Assembly (NCBI RefSeq): GCF_016411865.1
Contig: NZ_JAEKJA010000027.1
Location: 1 to 64,000 of the forward strand
DNA from: Acuticoccus mangrovi
GTDB taxonomy: Bacteria > Pseudomonadota > Alphaproteobacteria > Rhizobiales > Amorphaceae
Direction: 5' to 3'
DNA length: 64,000 nucleotides
Both the position numbers and the translations under genes were made by a program. Under the pieces are notes generated by a model. It was given only the letters and a program-made list of their open reading frames with translations, ran no database searches and was not told where the DNA came from. Below, piece after piece: positions 51,597-62,919 of this stretch. The first letter of the stretch is position 1; each line of letters opens with the position of its first letter.

Positions 51597-53279
51597 TCAG
51601 AGGATCTCTTCGGAGTAGTTGAGGAGACCGGAGGCGCGGATGGCGGCGTTGGGGTAGTAGGCGTCGCGCAGCGCGGCGAGCGAGAAGCTCGGGTCCACCT
51701 TGCGCAGGTGTTCGAGCATGTCGCGCGCCTTCTCCTTCTCGCCGGCGCGCATATAGAGCGGCACCAGATAGCGCTGCGGCGAGAGATAGCGCGGCCACAA
51801 CGCCCGCATCAGCTCGCCGATGCGCAGCGCCTCGTCGTACTGGCCGCTCTCCAATGCGGTGAGGCCGCAGATGAGGTCCAGCGTGGGCTGATAGGGGGTG
51901 GGGCCGGCGAGCTTGCGGGCCGCCGCCGCGTAGCTGTAGCCGCGCTGATGGTCGCCGAGGTGCGACTTGACGCGGCCGAGAAAGGCCATCGCCAGCGCGT
52001 TGTGCCGGCTCAGCGCGAGGCTGCGCTCGGCGAGCTCGTGCGCCACGTGATACTCGTCGAGCACCAGGCTGTAGACGTAGCTCGTCAGCGCGTGGACCAT
52101 CGAGTTGTGCGGCTCGAGCTCGATCGCCTGACGGGCGTAGGCCTTCGCCTCCTCCCGCAGGACCTGCCGGTTGGCGGGATTGTGCTCCACATAGTCGTAG
52201 GTCTGCGCGTAGGCCCGCCAGGCGAGGAAGATGCCGCGCCCCTCCATGGCGAAGGCGGTGTCGAGCAGCCGGCGCGCCTCCTGCAGGTCGTCGTAGTCGA
52301 GGGTGCACATGCGCTGGATGGCGTCGTAGCCCATGGCGAAGGCGGTGCGCCGGTCGTCGGCGCTGTAGAGGTTGCGCAGCTGGATCGAGCCGACGCTGAT
52401 GCCCTCGTTGATGAGGCGCTTCAGCTCGTCCGCGTCGACGATGAACCCGTCGTTGGGCACGAGCCCCGTGCCGGACCAGAGACGCCGCGTGGTGTGCGGG
52501 CAGGTGTAGGTGAGGTGCACGGCGGTGACCTTCGCCATCGCCTGCGCCTCGACGCGGATCTCGATGCCGGGCGTCTCGAGCGGTGTGTCGCGCACCTCGA
52601 TGGAGTTGAGCTCGGCGAGCCCGCCCGCCACCGCGTCGCCCACCACGCGCGACAGGAAGGCGTCGTTGTCGCCGCGCGTCAGCTCGGGCGGCAGCACCCT
52701 GACCCACGGCCGCTCCACCTCCGGCGCCTTGCCGTGGCCGAGCCGCGGCGCGGGCTGCCAACCGACGAACGACGCTCCCGTGGCCGGCCGGTCGATCCGC
52801 TCCGCCGGGCCGGTCGAACGCGCCGAGCCGGCGTCGAGCCGGTCGTGCACCTTCGCCCGCTGCTCGCGGAGCCAGTCCTCGAACTCGGGATCGCGAATGG
52901 TGAGATCGTCGAGCAGCATCGCGGCCGCCGCCGCACCCTCGCCGGCCGGCGGATCGACCGCCACGGCGACCCGCTCGGGGTCGAGGCTGATATAGCGCGG
53001 CTCGGCGAGGAGGCAGTCCTGATAGTCGCCGAGGCTGCGACGAATGTCGGTCAGCGCCTGCCGCAGATTGGCGGCGCTGTGCTCCGGGCCCATCAGGCTC
53101 CAGAGCTTGTCCTGGAGGGCGGTGCGAGAGCGGCCGAGCTCCGGCGACAGCGCGATGATCGCGAGCACGGCGCGGGACTTCTGGCGCGTGGGCGTGAGGT
53201 CGCTCCCGTCCGGCCCGCGCACGCGGAAGGCGCCGAACAGCGAGATCGTCAGCCGTCCCGCGCTCCTGACGTCCGCCAT
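51597..53279 (-). CDS. SARP-like winged-helix regulator with TPR region
   Basis: This 560-residue protein begins with an OmpR/SARP-type winged helix (LTISLFGAFRVRGPDG, RQKSRAVLAIIALSP, then ANLRQALTDIRRSLGD), continues through a middle domain of uncertain fold (about 170-300), and ends in helical repeats that look like TPRs (DEAELLDTAFAMEG-type pairs, ALSRHNALAMAFLGRVKSHLGD, ESGQYDEALRIGELM). It is cytoplasmic, with no membrane segment. It is divergent from the hydrolase genes starting at 53469 and is the natural candidate for their regulator. It converges with the aldo/keto reductase gene. Confidence 0.85.
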   Translation of the reverse strand: MADVRSAGRLTISLFGAFRVRGPDGSDLTPTRQKSRAVLAIIALSPELGRSRTALQDKLWSLMGPEHSAANLRQALTDIRRSLGDYQDCLLAEPRYISLDPERVAVAVDPPAGEGAAAAAMLLDDLTIRDPEFEDWLREQRAKVHDRLDAGSARSTGPAERIDRPATGASFVGWQPAPRLGHGKAPEVERPWVRVLPPELTRGDNDAFLSRVVGDAVAGGLAELNSIEVRDTPLETPGIEIRVEAQAMAKVTAVHLTYTCPHTTRRLWSGTGLVPNDGFIVDADELKRLINEGISVGSIQLRNLYSADDRRTAFAMGYDAIQRMCTLDYDDLQEARRLLDTAFAMEGRGIFLAWRAYAQTYDYVEHNPANRQVLREEAKAYARQAIELEPHNSMVHALTSYVYSLVLDEYHVAHELAERSLALSRHNALAMAFLGRVKSHLGDHQRGYSYAAAARKLAGPTPYQPTLDLICGLTALESGQYDEALRIGELMRALWPRYLSPQRYLVPLYMRAGEKEKARDMLEHLRKVDPSFSLAALRDAYYPNAAIRASGLLNYSEEIL

Positions 53280-53492
53280 CGCGGCCCGCTCCCATCGTTC
53301 GCACGCATGCGCACCGCCCGCTCGCCCGGGCTCGCGCCGATATAAGACGCACTGATTGGCCGAGGGAAGACTACGTTATGGCCGCGAACAATCAAGTAAT
53401 TTCGCCGGCGTGAAAAGTGCGTGAATTACGAATGGCCAACTCTGCACACGGTTGAGACACAGCCGTGAATGGATTTCACATTTGGTGAAATC
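53280..53492. promoter_or_regulatory. Divergent control region of the hydrolase island
   Basis: This AT-richer gap lies between the SARP-like regulator and the PAP2 gene. It contains GTAATT/AATTAC arms, TTGGCC and GGCCAA, and a perfect palindrome GATTTCAC (53472-53479) / GTGAAATC (53485-53492) around ATTTG. The palindrome falls in the first codons of the PAP2 frame if translation starts at 53469, or upstream of it if the TTG at 53574 is used. Confidence 0.5.
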
Positions 53493-54713
53493 AAGATCGA
53501 AGCATCCGCGACGCAACCCGGTCTCTCCATGACATTGACCTCTGGGTCGCGGACCAGAAGAGGGTGGAAGCCATTGTCGACCTCAGCCTACCTCGCGGAA
53601 CTTAACGGGGCCAACGGCGCGAATGGCGCCAACGGGGCCAATGGGGCGAACGGCGCCAACGGGGCCGGCGGTCTTCTGCCGGAATCGGGCTTCGTGGGCC
53701 GCCTCGCCTCCCCCTTCACCTCCGGCGCCACCATCACCAGCCGGGACGGCATCGTCGGCCCCTGGGTGGAGCCCGTCGGCCTTCCGGGCACGCCCGACTT
53801 CGACGATCCGGAGGCGATGGGCGTCTGGTCGCCGCGGGTGCGCGCCAACATCTACGCCTTCGAGCTCGGCAGCCTGTTCGGCTTCACCGGCGACGGCACC
53901 GGCGCCACCGTCACCGCGCGCGACGCATCGGGCGATGCGCTGCCCCTCGTGACGTTGCGCCGCCCGTCGGTCGCCACGCTGCGCGCCCAGCTCGCCCTCG
54001 TGCGCGGCTACGCCGATCTGCGCTCCGATCGCGCCCCGGAGATCCTGTCGCAGCTCTCGATGATCGAGATCTTCTTCGGCGGCATCACCGGCCTCCATCG
54101 CCAGAAGCACCGCTACACGCTGGAGCTCGTCGCCGTGCTCAATCACATGATGGTGCTCACCGAGATGCGGGTGAAGCACGCCATCGCCGCACCGCGCCCC
54201 ACCGCCTTCAGCGCCCAGATCAACCCGATGATCCAGAACCCGGGGCACGGCTCCTTCCCGAGCGGCCATTCGGGCGAATCCTTCCTGATGGCGGGCCTCC
54301 TGTCGCACCTCAGCGAGGCGCAGGATCTCGCCATCCACGGCCCCGCCCGTCACTACCGGGCCCAGATGATGCTTCAGGCGCACCGCATCGCCGTGAACCG
54401 CGTGGTCGCCGGGGTGCACTTCCCGACCGACAACGTCGCCGGCCAGGTGCTCGGCCTCACGCTGCTGCCCTACCTCCTCGCCGCCTGCGGCAACGACGGC
54501 ACCGGTTCCGTCGCGACCACGCCGGTGACGTTCGACGCCGACGCGTTCGGCGCCGGCGATCACGACTTCGCCACCATCAACGAGATCCTGGACGGCGGCG
54601 GACCGCAGCAGACCTACCTCACCCGCGGCACCGGCACGGTGACGCCGCCGGCCGGGTCGTGCCCGACCATCGCCTGGCTCTACGCCAAGGCGAAGGCCGA
54701 GTGGCCGAGCTGA
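53469..54713 (+). CDS. PAP2/vanadium-haloperoxidase-type protein with GAN repeat
   Basis: This protein of up to 414 residues carries the full three-part phosphatase/haloperoxidase signature: K-x6-RP in VKHAIAAPRP, PSGH in HGSFPSGHSGESF, and R-x5-H-x3-D in NRVVAGVHFPTDN. It could be an acid phosphatase or a vanadium haloperoxidase. There is no signal peptide or clear membrane segment. The N-terminus holds seven Asn-Gly-Ala triplets. Start is uncertain: ATG 53469, or TTG 53574 with a better GGTGGAAG site just before the repeat. First gene of the hydrolase island. Confidence 0.85.
   Translation: MDFTFGEIKIEASATQPGLSMTLTSGSRTRRGWKPLSTSAYLAELNGANGANGANGANGANGANGAGGLLPESGFVGRLASPFTSGATITSRDGIVGPWVEPVGLPGTPDFDDPEAMGVWSPRVRANIYAFELGSLFGFTGDGTGATVTARDASGDALPLVTLRRPSVATLRAQLALVRGYADLRSDRAPEILSQLSMIEIFFGGITGLHRQKHRYTLELVAVLNHMMVLTEMRVKHAIAAPRPTAFSAQINPMIQNPGHGSFPSGHSGESFLMAGLLSHLSEAQDLAIHGPARHYRAQMMLQAHRIAVNRVVAGVHFPTDNVAGQVLGLTLLPYLLAACGNDGTGSVATTPVTFDADAFGAGDHDFATINEILDGGGPQQTYLTRGTGTVTPPAGSCPTIAWLYAKAKAEWPS
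53604..53666. repeat. 9-bp tandem repeat x7 coding Asn-Gly-Ala
   Basis: Seven 9-bp units encode (NGA)7. Codons alternate between AAC/AAT, GGC/GGG and GCC/GCG, so the protein repeat is conserved more than the DNA. Read as Gly-Ala-Asn it matches the Gly-X-Y pattern of short collagen-like stretches. Confidence 0.9.
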
Positions 54714-54726
54714 GCGAGCGCCCGCC

Positions 54727-56802
54727 ATGCCGATGCAGTGGACCACCCCCACGCCGATCCCGCCGGCGGCCGGCGCCGCCGATCCCGCCTGGCACTTCCT
54801 CACCGCCGTGAGCGCCCCGGAGGACGCCATCGTGCGCCCTCTCCTCGTCACCCTCGCCATGACCCGGCAGGGCGCCCGCGAGCTGATGAACGCGCGATGG
54901 AACCGCGGACCCGGCCAGCACCGGCCGCTTCTGCGCAAGATCGCCGACCGGCTCGACGCCATCGACGTCGACGCGGTCGAGGTCTTCCTCGCCGCCGACC
55001 GTCACGAGTTCCCGATCGTCGGGGTCGAGTTCGACGTGCAGCCGGACGAGATGCCCTTTCTCGGCGACATCGCCGCCCTCACCCGCCGTCATGACGGGCT
55101 GTGGCTCGCGCCCGCCCCGCTCGACGAGATCGGTCCCCTCTGGGCCGCGGCGATCGTGGACTATGAGCGCCGCGCCATCGGCCCGGTGCCGGAGCCGGCC
55201 GACCACATCGCCGCCAACGCGGTGGTGATGGCGATCATCGACGACGGCATCGCCATCGCCAACGACCGCTTCCGCCGCAGCGCCGGCGAGACGCGGGTGG
55301 AGACGTTCGTCAGCCTCCGCCTCGCCGGCGGGCACGTGACGGCGCACCGCTTCGAGCGGGAGGAGATCGACCAGCTCGTCGCGAACGCCGGCGGCGACGA
55401 GCGGATGGTCTACCGGATGATGGACCTCATCGACCCCGCCTCCGACAGGCGGCAGCCGCTGCGCTTCTCACGCAGCCACGGCACCCATGTGCTCGATCTG
55501 ATGGCCGGAGACGCCTGGCGCGGCCGGCCGCAGACGCCGGAGGAGCGGCCGATCATCGCCGTCAACGTGCCGTCGGAGGCGATCGAGGACCGCTCCGACT
55601 CGCTGATGCCGGCGAGCCTCGACCGGGCGCTGCGCGAGGTGCTCCTCGCCGCGGTCCGCCTCGGGATCCGCATGTCGGTCGACCCCGACGCCCCGAGCTT
55701 TCCGCCGCTGGTGCTCAATCTCAGCTTCGGCATGTTCGCCGGCCCTTGCGACGGCATGGGCAAGAACGAGCGCCTCCTGCGGCGCTTCCTCGAGATCTAT
55801 CGGGCGCTGCCGGGAGCGCCGCGCTGCGAGATCACCGTCGCCGCCGGCAACTCCTTCCAGTCGCGGGCGATGGCCAACACCCACCTCGCCACCGGCGAGC
55901 CGCTGACGCTCGACTGGTCGGTCCTGCCCGACGACAAGACGTCGAGCTTCGTCGAGATCTGGCTGCCGGAGCGGTCGTCCGGCGGCGCGGAGATCTCGGT
56001 GACGCTGACGCCGCCGGGCGGGCCCGTCTCGCCCCCGTCCCGGCTCGGCGAGATGATCGACCTGTCGGCCGGCGGCGACGCCGCGGCGCGGATCTACCAC
56101 CAGGAGGTGTCGCGGCAGGGCGGTCCCGCCGTGCGCGAGGTGGTGACGCTCGCCGTGCGGCCGACGACGGGCGACCGGCCCGGCGTGGTGGTCGCACCGG
56201 CCGGCATCTGGACGCTCACCCTCACCGGCACCCCGGTGGAGGGGGTGACCGTCGAGGTCGACATCCGCACCCAGCGCGACGACAAGGTGACCTTCCGCCC
56301 GCCCCGGGGCCGCCAGTCCTACTTCGACGATCCGAACTATCGCCGCTTCGACGCCACCGGCCGGATGATCAACGACACCAACGGCGAGGTGGGTCCCGTG
56401 ACGCGCTCGCGGACCCTCAACGCCTACGCCTCGGGGCCGGAGGCCGGCGGGCCGCTGCTCGTCGCCGGGGTGCGCCGCACCGATCTGAGCCCGGCCCTCT
56501 ACTCCACCGCCGGACCCTCGGCGGGCGGACGGCCGGGCCCGACGGTCTGCGCCCAGTCGGAGGGCAGCCCCTCGCACATCGGCGTGCTCGCGACCGGCAC
56601 CTATTCCGGCAGCGTGGCGGCGATGCGCGGGACGAGCGTCGCCGCCCCCCAGGCGGCCCGGCAGATCGCCAACGCCATCGCCGCCGGCCTGCCGAGCACC
56701 GCCGGAATGGCGCCGCTCGACCCCGGCGTGCGCGACCGCCTCGGCACCCACCGCGTCGACGTGGTGGTGAGCGAGACCGAGATGCGCCGGTTCCGCGTCT
56801 GA
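54727..56802 (+). CDS. Subtilisin-family (S8) serine protease
   Basis: This 691-residue protease has the triad in order: Asp in VMAIIDDGIAIAN (about 171), His in SRSHGTHVLDLMAG (about 251) and Ser in RGTSVAAPQAARQ (about 637); the oxyanion Asn lies in TVAAGNSFQ (about 375). A region of about 200 residues between Asn and Ser carries beta-rich sequence and is larger than in simple subtilisins. There is no signal peptide; the first 150 residues may act as a prodomain. It follows the PAP2 gene by 13 bp. Confidence 0.92.
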   Translation: MPMQWTTPTPIPPAAGAADPAWHFLTAVSAPEDAIVRPLLVTLAMTRQGARELMNARWNRGPGQHRPLLRKIADRLDAIDVDAVEVFLAADRHEFPIVGVEFDVQPDEMPFLGDIAALTRRHDGLWLAPAPLDEIGPLWAAAIVDYERRAIGPVPEPADHIAANAVVMAIIDDGIAIANDRFRRSAGETRVETFVSLRLAGGHVTAHRFEREEIDQLVANAGGDERMVYRMMDLIDPASDRRQPLRFSRSHGTHVLDLMAGDAWRGRPQTPEERPIIAVNVPSEAIEDRSDSLMPASLDRALREVLLAAVRLGIRMSVDPDAPSFPPLVLNLSFGMFAGPCDGMGKNERLLRRFLEIYRALPGAPRCEITVAAGNSFQSRAMANTHLATGEPLTLDWSVLPDDKTSSFVEIWLPERSSGGAEISVTLTPPGGPVSPPSRLGEMIDLSAGGDAAARIYHQEVSRQGGPAVREVVTLAVRPTTGDRPGVVVAPAGIWTLTLTGTPVEGVTVEVDIRTQRDDKVTFRPPRGRQSYFDDPNYRRFDATGRMINDTNGEVGPVTRSRTLNAYASGPEAGGPLLVAGVRRTDLSPALYSTAGPSAGGRPGPTVCAQSEGSPSHIGVLATGTYSGSVAAMRGTSVAAPQAARQIANAIAAGLPSTAGMAPLDPGVRDRLGTHRVDVVVSETEMRRFRV

Positions 56803-56858
56803 AACGCGGCGGCGCGGCCGCGACCGCGCCGCCCCCTAGCGAGAGGAGGCACCCGAGG

Positions 56859-57242
56859 GTGTTGTTCGATCCGCTGAAGATCCAGGACTATCACGACCGG
56901 GTCCGCGACTGCATCGAGGCCGGCAAGCCCGGCTTCGCGCAAGGCTATCTCTTCGACGTGCTCGTCTCCTACGAGACGGCGTCGCCCGGCGGCCCGTTCC
57001 TCTTTCCGGTCGGCTTCTGCATCCCGATCCGTCCCACCGGGGTGCTCGAGGAGCTGATCCTCGACGTGGCGCGGGGCGAGGCCACGGCCTCGCCCTACAC
57101 CTTCCGCCGCAGCCGCATCGAGCGGATGATCGACGAGCGTCGCACCCATCCGATGCCGATCCGCAAGCTGCGCCGCCAGGCCGACATGCTCACCGCCTTT
57201 TACATGGCCCCCGACAGTACCGGTCACCGAATGATATTCTGA
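56859..57242 (+). CDS. Hypothetical protein of the hydrolase island
   Basis: This 127-residue soluble protein is not recognised. It starts at GTG 56859 with GAGGAGG nine bases upstream and reads FDPLKIQDYHDRVRDCIEAG, then a hydrophobic centre (PFLFPVGFCIPIRPTGVLEE) and a basic C-terminal half (FRRSRIERMIDERR, IRKLRRQADML). No signal peptide. It lies between the S8 protease and the trypsin-nuclease fusion on the same strand. It could be an inhibitor, chaperone or immunity partner for one of its neighbours, but nothing in the sequence proves this. Confidence 0.75.
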   Translation: MLFDPLKIQDYHDRVRDCIEAGKPGFAQGYLFDVLVSYETASPGGPFLFPVGFCIPIRPTGVLEELILDVARGEATASPYTFRRSRIERMIDERRTHPMPIRKLRRQADMLTAFYMAPDSTGHRMIF

Positions 57243-57334
57243 GCCCCAGACGGTCTAAATATTGGCTGTTGCGACCGCCCGATCATCCTGCTAATATAAA
57301 TGCAATTTACTAAACGTTATTTGAATTAAGGAAT
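57243..57334 (+). promoter_or_regulatory. AT-rich leader before the protease-nuclease fusion
   Basis: This 92-bp gap is strikingly AT-rich against its surroundings and contains a TAATATAAAT -10-like box near 57291-57300 and an AAGGA ribosome site at 57328. It may be an internal promoter giving separate control of the downstream nuclease, papain-like and SGNH genes. Confidence 0.45.
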
Positions 57335-59293
57335 ATGATTATGGACATGCGTGCGCGCATGGCGTCCGTCCTCGAGGACGACGAGGTTTTCGAGTCGCTG
57401 CGGGACGGCGGCTTCATGTCCAACGTGCTGGACGATCCCGACGCCGAATCCGCCCCGGCCGGTGCCACGATTCCGGACCCCAGAGACCTTCGCCGCGCCG
57501 CCGAGACGCTGCGCTCCGGACAGTTCGACACCGACAATCTGACCCCGGCCGAGGCGATCATCGTGCGCTTCGGCTATCCGCCGCTGCTCGTGCAGAACGG
57601 CACCTACGTGAAGCCCGCCCTCCCGGTCTGGTCGAGGCGGCTCGATCCCCATCGCGCCGCCATCGACCGCGCCATCGCCGGCGTCGGCCGGGTGGAGGTC
57701 AGCGGCTTTCCCTACGGCAACTGGCTCGGCACCGGCTGGATGATCGACGAGGACATCGTCGTCACCAATCGCCATGTGGTGAAGGATCTCGCGGCCCGGC
57801 GCGGCAACACCATCGCCATCCACGCCGGCTACGGCATCGCGCTCGACTACAGGGAGGAGCACGGCAGCCCGCTCGCCGAGGAGATCGAGGTCAGCGAGGT
57901 GATCCACATCGACGATCGCGTCGACCTCGCGATGCTGCGCCTCGGACGGAGCGCGCTCGCCACCTTCGGGATCGCCCCCCTTCCCCTCGCCGCGACGGTC
58001 CCGACCGACGGCTACATCGCCGTGATCGGCTATCCCGCCTACGACCCGCGCAACTCGCCCGACGACCAGTCGCGCCTCTTCGACGACATCTACGAGAAGA
58101 AGCGCCTGTCCCCCGGCAAGGTGATCGCCGGCGGCGAGCGGGCGGACACCTTCTCGCACAACTGCACGACGCTCGGCGGCAACTCCGGCTCCTGCGTCAT
58201 CGACGTGTCGTCCGGGAGGGTGGTGGGGCTCCACTATGGCGGGCGCGAGGGCGAGGAGAACAAGGCGGTGCGGGTGGAGGAGATCCGCGAGCGGGCGACG
58301 CGCCTCGGGATCCGGATCGGCCGCCCCGCTCAGTACAGCGCCGCCAACGACTCCCGCCGCGAGGACACCGCCGCGGCGGAGGCGCGCCCCCACCCGATCG
58401 AGTACTACAGCGACCGCGAGGGCTACGACACCGGCTTCCTCGGCGGCCCGTCCCTCGCCGTGCCGCTGCCGCGCCTCAACGCGCTGCAGGCGCGCGACGT
58501 CGCCCGGCTCGCCGACGGGTCCATCGACCTCAAATATCAGAACTTCTCGGTGGTGATGAACGCCGCCCGGCGGCTCGCCTTCTTCACTGCCGTCAACATC
58601 GACGCCACCGACCTCTGGAACAAGCCCCGCCCCGCCGACGTCTGGCGGCTCGACCCGCGGATCGACGACGCGGCGCAGGTGGGCGAGCCGCTCTACTACG
58701 CCAACGACTTCGACAAGGGCCATCTGGTGCGCCGCCTCGACCCGGTGTGGGGCGACAAGTCCAGCGCCGCGCGCGCGGAGGCCGACACCTACCACTTCAC
58801 CAACGCCGCGCCGCAGCACCGCCGCCTCAACCAGGCGATCTGGCTGCGCCTCGAGGACCACATCCTCAAGCACGCGAGCGACAGCGACGCCAAGATCAGC
58901 GTTCTGTGCGGCCCGGTGTTCGGCTACGCCGATCCGCGCTCCCAGCGGGCGGATCTGGAGGAGGTCGGCGTTCCCCTCGGCTTCTGGAAGATCATCGCCT
59001 CGATCGGGCGCGATCGGCGCCAGAGGAGCCGCCTCGAAGCGCAGGGCTTCGTCATCTGGCAGCACGACTTCATCCGCCCGTCGGACTTCGAGGCGGTGTT
59101 CGGTGCCGGGTTCGAGACCTACCAGCTGCCGATCGCCGCGCTGGAGCGGCTGACCGGCCTCGACTTCGGCGCGGCGCTGCGCAAGGCCGACACGCTCGGC
59201 GAGGAGCCAATGCCGGCGGGCGACAGCGAGGCCGTGCGCAGCGCCGTCGACACCACGGTGGTGCGCCTTCGCCAGCTCGACGACATCGTCTGA
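57335..59293 (+). CDS. Trypsin-like protease fused to DNA/RNA non-specific endonuclease
   Basis: This 652-residue protein has two catalytic domains. The trypsin/V8-like domain (about 115-330) has His in VVTNRHVV (about 146), Asp in DDRVDLAML (about 197) and Ser in GGNSGSCV (about 284). The C-terminal domain (about 385-625) is a beta-beta-alpha-metal nuclease of the NUC1/Serratia type, with DKGHLVRR (His near 462) and the metal-binding Asn in FTNAAPQHRRLNQAIW. No signal peptide. ATG 57335 is used here; ATG 57341 has better spacing from AAGGA. Release of the nuclease by the protease is an attractive idea, not shown. Confidence 0.92.
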   Translation: MIMDMRARMASVLEDDEVFESLRDGGFMSNVLDDPDAESAPAGATIPDPRDLRRAAETLRSGQFDTDNLTPAEAIIVRFGYPPLLVQNGTYVKPALPVWSRRLDPHRAAIDRAIAGVGRVEVSGFPYGNWLGTGWMIDEDIVVTNRHVVKDLAARRGNTIAIHAGYGIALDYREEHGSPLAEEIEVSEVIHIDDRVDLAMLRLGRSALATFGIAPLPLAATVPTDGYIAVIGYPAYDPRNSPDDQSRLFDDIYEKKRLSPGKVIAGGERADTFSHNCTTLGGNSGSCVIDVSSGRVVGLHYGGREGEENKAVRVEEIRERATRLGIRIGRPAQYSAANDSRREDTAAAEARPHPIEYYSDREGYDTGFLGGPSLAVPLPRLNALQARDVARLADGSIDLKYQNFSVVMNAARRLAFFTAVNIDATDLWNKPRPADVWRLDPRIDDAAQVGEPLYYANDFDKGHLVRRLDPVWGDKSSAARAEADTYHFTNAAPQHRRLNQAIWLRLEDHILKHASDSDAKISVLCGPVFGYADPRSQRADLEEVGVPLGFWKIIASIGRDRRQRSRLEAQGFVIWQHDFIRPSDFEAVFGAGFETYQLPIAALERLTGLDFGAALRKADTLGEEPMPAGDSEAVRSAVDTTVVRLRQLDDIV

Positions 59294-59338
59294 AACCGGT
59301 CGGGCCGCCGCCCGGCCCGCTTTCGCCGGAGTGCCGCC

Positions 59339-61447
59339 ATGCCGCTCAACGACGCTGGCCGCCCGCTCGACGCGATGCCGGATCCGCCCGACGCGCGCGA
59401 TGCGATGTATGTGCCCTCGGTCCGCGCCCTGCGCCCCACGCTCGATCCGCGCAAGGCCGGCGGCTGGTGGTCGCCGGGCCTCGTCCGCGACCAGGGCCGC
59501 GACCCCTCGTGTACGGGTCACGCCGTGGCGGGCGCGACCGACCTTCTCCTCAACCGCGAGGCCGAGGACAACGGTCACGCCACGCCGCGCCACGGCTTCG
59601 CGGTCGGCGCGCCGTTCGCCAGCGCCATCATGATCTACGGCAACGCGCGGCTCCACGACGAGTGGCCGGGCGAATCCTACGCCGGATCGTCGCTGCGCGG
59701 CGCGCTCAAGGGGTTTCAGCACAACGGCGTGTGCTCCATCGTCGACGCCCGCACCACCGGCTGGCGCGAGGGGATCGGCGATCGCGCCGCCTGGCGCTGG
59801 CACGCGCGACGCGAGGTGCAGGAAGCCGCCTTCGAGACCATGCTCGGCAGCTATCGCCGGGTCGAGACCCGCCTCGACGATCTCCATGCCGCCCTCTCGG
59901 AGGTGGGGGTGGTGGTGGCGACGGCCGCCGTCCACGACGGCTGGTACGCCCCGCGCGGCGGGGTGATCGGCGCGCCCACGGCGACCGACCCCGCGGCGGC
60001 GGAGCGCCGGCACGCCTTCATCCTCATCGGCTTCACCGCCGACGGCTTCATCGTCCAGAATTCCTGGGGTCCCTCCTGGGGCGAGGGCGGCACCGCGCTG
60101 TGGCCCTACGACGACTGGGCCGCCACCATCTACGACGCATGGGTGCTGAAGCTCGGCGTGCGCGCGCCGAAGGCGTTCCGCCACTCCTTCGGCCCGCAGG
60201 GCTTCGCCGCCCTCGCCGAGGCGGAACGGGTGAAGGAGCAGCGACCTTCGCGCCTCGACGTTCTCGGCCACCTCGTGCCGGTGGAGAACCAGCGCCTTCT
60301 GGCACACGGGCGCTTCAACATCGACCGAGCCGAGATCGGCCAGATCGCCGAATATATCGCGGGCGAAGGCCTCCGGCCCGGCACGCCCGACACCGCGCGC
60401 TATCGCCACGTGGTGCTGTTCTTCATCGGCGGCTGCCGCTCGCTCGACGAGACCGCCCGGGCGGTGCGCTCCCGCCATCCCGAGTTCACGCGGGCCGGGA
60501 TCTACCCGATCTTCATCACCTTCGAGGCGGTGATGTGCGGTGCGCTGCTGCGCGAGGTGAAGCACGCCGTCGCCGAGGTCCACCAGCAGGTCGGGCCGAC
60601 CTCGGTACGCAACACCATGTCGGCCCGCCTCGTGGAGCAGGCCGTTTCCAACGTGCCGGCGCGCATCCGCCTCGCCCTGATCCGCTCGATCCCGGTCTTC
60701 CTCGGCACCGACGCCGATGCCGGGGCGGAGACGACCGACGGCGCCGCCCTCTTCCACATCCTCTTCCAGACGCTCGCGGCGCGCTATCTCTCCGGCAGCC
60801 TCTCCTTCCACATCGTCGCCTATGATCTCGGCGCCCGCCTCGCGGCCGAGTTCCTCTCCGCCGCGCTGCCGAACTGGCCGACGCCGATCTTCTCCACCGC
60901 CCACTTCGTGGCGCCGATGGTGTCGGCCCCGATGTTCGCCCGCACGGTGCTGCCGCTGGTGCGTCCGCGCGGCTCCGGCCCCGCCGGGCGCCATGCTCCG
61001 ACCGATGCGCCGGCCATCGAGCGCGCCTTCCTCTACCACCTCGACGACCGCATCGCCGCCGGCGACCTCTTCGGCGAGGGCTACCCCCACTCCTGGCCCG
61101 ATCTCTGGGCTCGCGCCGAAGCGACCATGGTCGCCGGCGAGGCCCACCCCGACGAGATCGACATTCTGCCCGGCAACGAGGGCCGCCGGGTGCGCAGTCT
61201 CGCCCTCGGCGCCTATCAGCGCGACCTCGCCGCCACGCCCGCCGCGAGCGCGGCCGACCTCACCGTCACCGCTCTCGGCGACCTCGACCAGGAGCGGCTC
61301 GAGGGCCTCACCCACTTCGACCTCCACTTCTGCGAGCGGCTGACGACCTGCGTCGTCGAGGAAATCGGCCGGACCGCGGCTCAGGAGGTGCCGCTCCGCC
61401 GCCCTCGACGATCAGCGAACGGCGCTCAGCCGTCGATCTTCACCTGA
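59339..61447 (+). CDS. Papain-like protease fused to an alpha/beta-hydrolase-like domain
   Basis: This 702-residue protein starts with a C1-type cysteine protease domain: VRDQGRDPSCTGHAVAG (Cys near 58), His in RRHAFILIGF (about 225) and Asn in IVQNSWGPSWGEGG (about 241). The C-terminal half (about 330-690) looks like an alpha/beta hydrolase: VVLFFIGGCRSLDE, a possible nucleophile elbow HIVAYDLGARLA, and a late YHLDDRIAAGD. The elbow has Asp where lipases have Ser, as in dehalogenases and epoxide hydrolases, or it may be inactive. No signal peptide. 45 bp after the trypsin-nuclease gene. Confidence 0.85.
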   Translation: MPLNDAGRPLDAMPDPPDARDAMYVPSVRALRPTLDPRKAGGWWSPGLVRDQGRDPSCTGHAVAGATDLLLNREAEDNGHATPRHGFAVGAPFASAIMIYGNARLHDEWPGESYAGSSLRGALKGFQHNGVCSIVDARTTGWREGIGDRAAWRWHARREVQEAAFETMLGSYRRVETRLDDLHAALSEVGVVVATAAVHDGWYAPRGGVIGAPTATDPAAAERRHAFILIGFTADGFIVQNSWGPSWGEGGTALWPYDDWAATIYDAWVLKLGVRAPKAFRHSFGPQGFAALAEAERVKEQRPSRLDVLGHLVPVENQRLLAHGRFNIDRAEIGQIAEYIAGEGLRPGTPDTARYRHVVLFFIGGCRSLDETARAVRSRHPEFTRAGIYPIFITFEAVMCGALLREVKHAVAEVHQQVGPTSVRNTMSARLVEQAVSNVPARIRLALIRSIPVFLGTDADAGAETTDGAALFHILFQTLAARYLSGSLSFHIVAYDLGARLAAEFLSAALPNWPTPIFSTAHFVAPMVSAPMFARTVLPLVRPRGSGPAGRHAPTDAPAIERAFLYHLDDRIAAGDLFGEGYPHSWPDLWARAEATMVAGEAHPDEIDILPGNEGRRVRSLALGAYQRDLAATPAASAADLTVTALGDLDQERLEGLTHFDLHFCERLTTCVVEEIGRTAAQEVPLRRPRRSANGAQPSIFT

Positions 61448-61458
61448 AAGGAAACGCC

Positions 61459-62919
61459 ATGGATGACCGCCCCATCCCACCGCGCAGGAACAAGCGCACC
61501 CTCGCCGAGGCGACACCCCGCCGCCTCAGCGCCGACGAGCTGCAGTCGATGATGCTCGACGTCGACATTCCCGACAGCCAGATCCGCCCCTATCTGCAGC
61601 TCGACCTCGCGAGCTCCCGCGCCTTCGGCCCCGTCGTCCGCGTCGACCCGAGCACCATCACGGAGAGCGTCGAAGAAAGCGCCTTCGCCCTCGCCCAGCT
61701 CAACAGCATCGCCCGCTGGCGCCGCCATCGCGTCTATCGCCGCCGCATCGAGAACTGGAGCGGTCCGGTCGCCGTGTCCGAGGGCGACAGCTGGTTCCAG
61801 TTCCCCTTCCTGCTCGACGACGTCATCGACGTGCTCGGCATCGACTACCCGATCTTCTCGCTCGGGGCCGCCGGCGACCTCCTGTCGGAGATGGTGCAGC
61901 AGGACGAGCTCGTCGGCGCGATCAAGGCGGAGAATCCGGACATCGTGTTCCTCTCGGGCGGCGGCAACGACCTCCTGGGCGGCGGCCGGCTGGTGAACTA
62001 TCTGCGCCGCTACCGCGAGGGGCGCCCGGCGTCGGAATATACGCGCAGCACCTTCGACACGCTGCTCAACCAGACGCTCGAGGAGTACGGCACGGTGTTC
62101 GAGGCGGCGCTGTCGGCCGGCGCGCCCCGCATCGTCTGCCACGCCTACGACAACGCCATCCCCGACGGCGGGCGCTGGCTCGGCCGCCCCTTCGCGGCGC
62201 TCGGGATCGTCGACCAGCCTCTGCAGCGCAGGATCATCGCCCACCTCATCGACCGCTTCCATCTCGGCCTGTCGGAGCTTTCCCGTCGCCAGGGCTTCGC
62301 GGGGCGGATCGTGGTGGCCGACGCCCGCGACGCCGTCGGCGAAAAGGACTGGTGGGACGAGCTGCACCCGAACGACGCCGGCTTCGCCCGCGTCGCCGCC
62401 GCGATCAAGCAATCGATCGCCGAGGCCGACGAGACCGAGACGCCGATCTTCCACACCGCCGCCGCGCTGCCGATCGCCCTCGCCCGCAGCGACGCCATGG
62501 CCTTCGCCGATCATGACGAGGCCGTGCTGATCGCCGAGCTCGGCCGCCGGGTGAAGCTGATGGGCGGATCGCCCGAGATCGCCGGGCTGATGAATGTCGA
62601 GGTCACGATCACCGAGGACGAAGGCCTCTTCGATCCGTTCTACCAGATCGGCCGGCGTATCCTGCGGCGCCTCCACCGGGAGCTGCACGACCTCATGTGC
62701 GGCACCGGCGAGGACGACGTCGCCGACCGCAAGAAGCTCGCCGACGCGTTCGGCCTCGGCGAGGCGGCGGTGACCGCGGCGATCGCCAGCGTGCTGGTGG
62801 GCAGCCTCGGCGTCGCCCCCTACGTCGCGCCGGTGGTGGCGGCGATCCTCTACAAGCGCGGCGTCAAGCCGACCATCGCCGAGGTGTGCGTGATCTGGGG
62901 CGAGGCGCTCGAGGCCTGA
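61459..62919 (+). CDS. SGNH/GDSL-family hydrolase with C-terminal extension
   Basis: This 486-residue protein has the SGNH blocks: VSEGDSWFQFPF (Ser near 110), SLGAAGDLLSEM, FLSGGGNDLLGGG (Asn near 171) and WWDELHPNDAGFARV (Asp/His near 301-304). It would be an esterase, lipase or deacetylase. The C-terminal 150 residues are not part of the fold and include a hydrophobic Ala/Val/Gly-rich segment (AIASVLVGSLGVAPYVAPVV, about 434-453) that could insert into a membrane. No N-terminal signal peptide. It is 11 bp after the papain-like gene and closes the island. Confidence 0.88.
   Translation: MDDRPIPPRRNKRTLAEATPRRLSADELQSMMLDVDIPDSQIRPYLQLDLASSRAFGPVVRVDPSTITESVEESAFALAQLNSIARWRRHRVYRRRIENWSGPVAVSEGDSWFQFPFLLDDVIDVLGIDYPIFSLGAAGDLLSEMVQQDELVGAIKAENPDIVFLSGGGNDLLGGGRLVNYLRRYREGRPASEYTRSTFDTLLNQTLEEYGTVFEAALSAGAPRIVCHAYDNAIPDGGRWLGRPFAALGIVDQPLQRRIIAHLIDRFHLGLSELSRRQGFAGRIVVADARDAVGEKDWWDELHPNDAGFARVAAAIKQSIAEADETETPIFHTAAALPIALARSDAMAFADHDEAVLIAELGRRVKLMGGSPEIAGLMNVEVTITEDEGLFDPFYQIGRRILRRLHRELHDLMCGTGEDDVADRKKLADAFGLGEAAVTAAIASVLVGSLGVAPYVAPVVAAILYKRGVKPTIAEVCVIWGEALEA

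Follow-up and report, generated by a model that had tools for sequence, protein, structure and literature searches.

A conserved regulator, PAP2 phosphatase and protease triad within a composite hydrolase island of Acuticoccus mangrovi

The coupling of a nuclease to proteases is known from System 3 of Kaur et al. (2020; PMC7159879), a predicted conflict system in which a NucA-like endonuclease is associated with several peptidases, and from LypABC of Caulobacter (Banks et al. 2026; PMC13236601), a CARD-NLR-like lysis system in which LypC (662 amino acids) consists of a trypsin-like protease and an endonuclease. The protease activity of LypC is required for programmed lysis in Caulobacter (Banks et al. 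2026). In the present study, an island of six hydrolase-type genes was analysed at 53469-62919 of the window, i.e., the stretch of 64,000 nucleotides (positions 1-64,000) of Acuticoccus mangrovi NZ_JAEKJA010000027.1; all island coordinates are window positions. One of its proteins, P0004, carries in a single polypeptide the NucA and trypsin domains that, fused or in one operon, define System 3, and its domain order is that of LypC, the level at which the two were compared. The left half of the island, a regulator, a PAP2 phosphatase and an S8 protease, belongs to a triad that is a real conserved module and not a chance cluster. This triad, for which alone newness is claimed, seems undescribed until now, judging from open-licence papers, in which no description of such a system was found, and from PADLOC 2.0.0.

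Linkage of the regulator, phosphatase and protease

A class sample of 230 genomes, a phylum sample of 398 genomes and plasmid records were searched. With PAP2 as the only query, 80 of the 398 phylum genomes matched at 1e-8, mostly in the catalytic core only. Among the 25 places down to 5.9e-30, 20 new ones were taken, four were already in the set and one (G385:C1:1706947) was dropped; weaker places were left out. These 20 loci were scored with profiles of the regulator and S8 that derived from other loci: the regulator was present within 2 kb of PAP2 in 20/20 and a protease beside PAP2 in 19/20 (18 S8 and one A4/G1 by motif). They provide a cleaner test of linkage than the remainder, because some plasmid loci were found via S8 or used in profile building. 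The complete set of 40 triad loci (the window, 13 plasmid, six class-genome and 20 phylum-genome loci; the Phaeobacter strains L124-L127 were excluded) contained the regulator in 40, S8 in 34, an A4/G1-like protease in four and no recognised protease in two. Among the other PAP2 matches, in contrast, S8 and the triad regulator were found within 1.5 kb in 0/32 (two places, L054/L158 and L057/L163, were counted twice, leaving about 30 distinct). The linkage is very tight across several classes of one phylum, plasmids included.

S8 relatives at E<1e-100 occurred in the class sample (n=230) only in the genome of the window, G152 and G166, each adjoining a full-length PAP2 relative. In the plasmid search, a PAP2 query from L079 matched 35 records, of which 17 were inspected, and S8 matched 36; the 30 S8 records listed were all within the 35. 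The distances of PAP2 and S8 were correlated (Mantel r 0.885, 33 loci, 0/2000 permutations as high), in part due to species relatedness, and the correlation between PAP2 and regulator distances was 0.682. An A4/G1 (eqolisin-type) peptidase replaces S8 after PAP2 in L081, L082, L083 and L180; it was confirmed by Pfam in L081 (Peptidase_A4, 2.3e-18) and assigned by motif in the other three. Anatomy, conservation, linkage and joint divergence are features of the triad that we regard as established. The window falls within the triad definition, with a regulator recognised by the regulator profile and S8 beside PAP2, as well as an N-terminal repeat:

51597-53279, minus strand: divergent regulator, SARP-like/TPR, P0013, 560 amino acids (ORF, Pfam and profile family)
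53469-54713, plus strand: soluble PAP2 phosphatase, P0001, 414 amino acids, with K236/R243, PSGH 264-267 and the R311/H317 motif (Pfam, motifs)
53604-53666, plus strand: in-frame 9-bp array coding (NGA)7 at the PAP2 N-terminus (repeat scan)
54727-56802, plus strand: S8 subtilisin-like protease, P0002, 691 amino acids, with D172, H251 and S637 (Pfam, alignment)

In Pfam, P0001 matched PAP2 at 1.3e-14 and P0002 matched Peptidase_S8 at 4.7e-7. An earlier reading of the sequence without database searches (hereafter the sequence-only reading) had called the former PAP2/haloperoxidase. The PAP2 assignment held; P0001 shares the catalytic motifs of PAP2 acid phosphatases, and the best match of the PAP2 profile to solved chains was the acid phosphatase 7f17 (1.7e-19). 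The haloperoxidase assignment was rejected as the weaker in this comparison (bromoperoxidase 1qi9, 5.4e-10). The SARP/TPR regulator proposed earlier is real and belongs to one family with the regulators of all 40 loci, which includes Trans_reg_C+TPR (L032) and Guanylate_cyc+TPR (L047, L081) members, although in P0013 itself only TPR was seen by Pfam. The regulator lies on the same strand as PAP2 in 31/40 loci and on the opposite strand in 9/40. In a plasmid of Paracoccus zhejiangensis (L130:1505-4252), genes for a type VI secretion ATPase (TssH) and for a caspase are located near the triad.

The tandem peptide repeat of the phosphatase

Four or more copies of a perfect tandem repeat were found near the N-terminus in 39/40 of the PAP2 proteins of the module, the period being three residues in 34, two in three and four in two. 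There were 29 distinct units in these 39 proteins, e.g., NGA, NAD, NSF, GGF, GGI, GGL, GGV, GGH, DAR, AGR, NGK, TGN and QTQ. In the same loci, such repeats were present in 0/37 S8 open reading frames (ORFs), 0/42 regulator ORFs, 0/4 A4/G1 ORFs and 1/388 other gene-like ORFs. The other PAP2 proteins lacked it as well (0/32), and the triad PAP2 is thus distinguished from them by both the repeat and its fixed regulator and protease neighbours.

Between adjacent units, 652/2649 nucleotides differed, third positions accounting for 635 of these differences (72% of 883), and only 5/351 units of the extended arrays deviated in peptide. The codons were therefore scrambled synonymously around a pure peptide, which argues that the peptide is kept constant and that the arrays are not fresh products of slippage; a slippage artefact was ruled out on these counts. 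The purity of the peptide against randomised codons, absent from neighbouring genes and ordinary PAP2 proteins, is an established feature that calls for an explanation. Among close strains, the copy number of NSF changed in frame (5, 6, 7 and 7 in four Phaeobacter plasmids), and PAP2 proteins 69% identical outside the repeat can differ in their unit (AGV/TGV; GGF/NSF). The idea of a partner protein sharing the (NGA) repeat was rejected, as the exact three-unit pattern occurred nowhere else in the same genome, imperfect copies being outside this search.

In the common pattern, two small residues are followed by X, and each protein has a single kind of X; this suggests an extended helix that turns every three residues and carries X on one face. 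The repeat could possibly serve as an extended multivalent tag for self-assembly or docking.

Composition of the island

As the sequence-only reading had stated, six same-strand hydrolase-type genes are present at 53469-62919 behind a divergent regulator; the ORFs (all on the plus strand, with the regulator on the minus strand at 51597-53279) and Pfam agree on this. The island is composite, consisting of the regulator/PAP2/protease core and gene 3, and then of a second effector set with the trypsin-NucA protein, the papain protein with its dead-looking hydrolase half and the SGNH protein:

56859-57242, plus strand: gene 3, P0014, 127 amino acids, GTG start at 56859, no known family (ORF and homologue)
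57335-59293, plus strand: trypsin-like protease and NucA-type (Endonuclease_NS) nuclease, P0004, 652 amino acids (Pfam)
59339-61447, plus strand: papain-fold protease (C58/H225/N241) and alpha/beta-hydrolase-like half without the usual nucleophile, P0005, 702 amino acids (Pfam, alignment)
61459-62919, plus strand: SGNH hydrolase, P0006, 486 amino acids, with a C-terminal domain (residues 402-465) matching PADLOC PDC-M35B (Pfam, PADLOC)

Catalytic motifs, claimed earlier for every domain, were found in the PAP2, S8, trypsin, nuclease, papain and SGNH domains, with the exception of the alpha/beta-hydrolase half, which reads YDLG. The absence of an evident Sec signal, also stated earlier, agrees with a crude hydropathy scan, which showed no hydrophobic stretch at the six N-termini (15-residue hydropathy mean at most 1.02 within the first 50 residues).

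Gene 3 is a genuine gene. Nothing matched it in Pfam, NCBIfam and PADLOC, the plasmid search gave zero matches, and its structure model was too poor for a fold search (mean predicted local distance difference test score 48.3). In one other genome, a 43% identical homologue directly follows S8 in L079, where the order of the window (divergent regulator, PAP2, S8 and gene 3) is repeated.

P0004 matched Trypsin_2 (8.3e-17) and Endonuclease_NS (1.4e-39) in Pfam and the PADLOC 'nacht' model at 63-163 (3.2e-14), and at least 80% of its length is covered in 12 plasmid records. P0005 matched Peptidase_C1 at 2.6e-5, with no Pfam match in the hydrolase half; its relatives are found in Gammaproteobacteria, Nitrospirales and Sumerlaeota assemblies. 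The papain C/H/N triad is kept in 16/16 aligned rows and the GHS nucleophile motif of the second half in 11/16. An active alpha/beta-hydrolase was rejected for the window protein, in which, as in L028, L030, L039 and L046, this motif is missing; the half looks catalytically dead as judged from its sequence. In the genome of the window there is a second protein with the papain-family alpha/beta-hydrolase half and no papain match (L123, G000:C4:147674-148666). L025 (G005, same genus), L033 and L035 each encode a fusion of trypsin with papain/alpha-beta-hydrolase, to which a very long ORF is divergent. P0006 matched Lipase_GDSL_2 at 1.1e-6, below the curated cut-off.

The papain and SGNH genes are a recurrent pair and not a chance association. 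They lie within about 5 kb in seven plasmid records (22 and 25 records matched, respectively; one pair spans the origin of a circular record) and adjoin in G095 and G037. At least four of the six genes together in another genome, the recurrence that the sequence-only reading had proposed to look for, were found once, in Palleronia pTHAF1_a, though with the catalytic serine of S8 replaced in the alignment; the genes there follow the window order, with regulator, PAP2, S8, an animal-type haem peroxidase, the papain protein and SGNH, the papain/SGNH pair being read across the record origin. That the system is coordinated is supported by the wide recurrence of its sub-modules and by this plasmid, which holds PAP2, S8, papain and SGNH.

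SGNH is also found in fusions, with a caspase in L028 and with Trypsin_2 and Exo_endo_phos in a 908-aa protein of a Pseudorhodobacter turbinis plasmid (L038:11998-14724). Just upstream of the latter is a gene reading like a membrane-anchored DsbA-type thiol oxidoreductase, and a similar gene adjoins the papain gene in L026. The papain protein, the SGNH-caspase protein and an S8-like gene are consecutive on one strand in L028:9058-15493 (G037). Neighbours of papain/SGNH in rhizobial plasmids (L030, L031, L034, L036, L037 and L046) comprise cell-wall enzymes, caspase, SUMF1/EgtB, DUF3616 and YEATS-associated-helix genes.

By reading of translations, the island is flanked by what we take to be an aldo/keto-reductase-like gene and an MscS-like channel gene. 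The empty-site test in seven congeners gave no clean empty site because relatives of the left-flank gene reach only 39-49% in them; those of the right-flank gene reach 67-68% in 4/7 congeners, and G006 has a partial one at 78%.

Proposed function and relation to described systems

The TPR regulator, of DNA-binding or cyclase type, would sense stress and turn the genes on; the encoded proteins would remain cytosolic, where the S8, trypsin and papain proteases may activate partners by cleavage and the nuclease, PAP2 and SGNH may attack nucleic acid, phospholipid or lipid-carrier, and ester substrates. The outcome could be a controlled self-digestion of the infected or damaged cell. Location, trigger, cascade, targets, outcome and the role of the repeat are predictions, and regulated cytosolic self-digestion, or defence, is favoured only tentatively. 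It is favoured because P0004 matches PDC-M35A (6.1e-7) and the C-terminus of P0006 matches PDC-M35B (1.1e-7) of the PADLOC candidate PDC-M35, weakly and partially; because SIR2-HerA genes adjoin the SGNH/nuclease locus L034, a LmuB-like gene adjoins L037 and qatA lies about 9 kb from the L047 triad; and because of the role of the LypC protease in lysis. The use in defence, killing or programmed lysis suggested by the sequence-only reading is consistent with these matches and with the defence genes near related loci. A fuller reading seems somewhat unlikely as a whole: a widespread, undescribed bacterial system in which PAP2 would bear a lineage-specific peptide barcode, namely the perfect tandem repeat, mostly of three residues, with the variable residue along one side of the extended helix. 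The barcode would bring like together with like and gate the paired protease under a dedicated regulator. In the window, this core would have acquired trypsin-NucA, papain and SGNH as an execution module, the whole making up a multi-enzyme programme of self-digestion.

It is also conceivable, if somewhat doubtful, that the island serves a regulated, non-lethal breakdown of the macromolecules of the cell itself during starvation. The hydrolase set would suit such recycling, as would the dedicated TPR regulator, sometimes with a cyclase domain, and many loci sit among metabolic genes; however, related loci keep the company of caspase, NucA-trypsin and SIR2/HerA genes and the distribution is patchy (e.g., S8 in 6/230 class genomes). 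An exported arsenal, with the hydrolases as non-Sec cargo of type VI secretion, extracellular injection particles, vesicles or cell lysis against competitors, is considered unlikely. The activities are typical of antibacterial effectors, cell-wall enzymes are near the rhizobial papain/SGNH loci and a TssH gene is near the Paracoccus zhejiangensis triad, the only one of the loci inspected with this neighbour. However, no secretion structure, trafficking domain or immunity gene pattern was recognised by ORF reading in the window and the next 20 kb, a scope short of genome-wide, and the triad proteins each keep one dedicated partner rather than forming a shuffled set. That the island is merely a chance neighbourhood of unrelated hydrolases is highly improbable. 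The full six-gene set was found only in the window, but the triad is linked with zero in controls, the papain-SGNH pair recurs, fusions exist and gene 3 has the same place in L079; chance is refuted as an explanation of both the triad and the papain-SGNH pair, and it could still account for how the two halves came together in this genome.

Several observations count against a conserved triad and its role in self-digestion or defence. Neither S8 nor A4/G1 was matched beside PAP2 in L080 and L184, and the latter has only an imperfect repeat (GGNWF); the PAP2 and S8 frames are broken in L128 (Parasedimentitalea), and the S8 of Palleronia has lost its serine. Two weaker S8 matches (G154, G243) come from genomes in which PAP2 gave no match. 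G190 shows no linkage of papain and SGNH, which are about 25 kb apart in the plasmid records CP024308 and CP069358, and G138 has the papain protein with no SGNH match. The complete six-gene set was confined to the window among the loci examined, and a full-length match to P0004 was absent from the other 229 class genomes at 1e-20. No defence genes were recognised around the window by ORF reading of the window and the next 20 kb, and the inspection of defence neighbours covered a minority of triads. P0004 is the only one of the six proteins with a described relative, and the nuclease activity of LypC is dispensable for lysis (Banks et al. 2026).

The claim that no system of this composition has been described has to be restricted, since the architecture of P0004 is that of System 3 and LypC; it is right only in part. 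LypA (CARD-trypsin-ATPase) and LypB (NLR-like) were not recognised when the ORFs of the window and of the following 20 kb were read, no dedicated profile search being made, and the NucA and SGNH domains and the other four window genes fall outside the PDC-M35 models. The optional EAD1 or STAND NTPase with Death-like domain of System 3 had no Pfam match in the seven window proteins scanned; P0004 did match the PADLOC 'nacht' model, as given above. The System 3 section of Kaur et al. (2020) contains no PAP2, SGNH, TPR regulator or repeat ('PAP2' and 'GDSL' appear 0 times in the main text), whereas S8 and papain activities are named there for some members, as in the window. Through the triad, phosphatases and S8 or A4/G1 proteases are linked to the bacterial conflict systems of the NucA-trypsin and caspase/SGNH kind.

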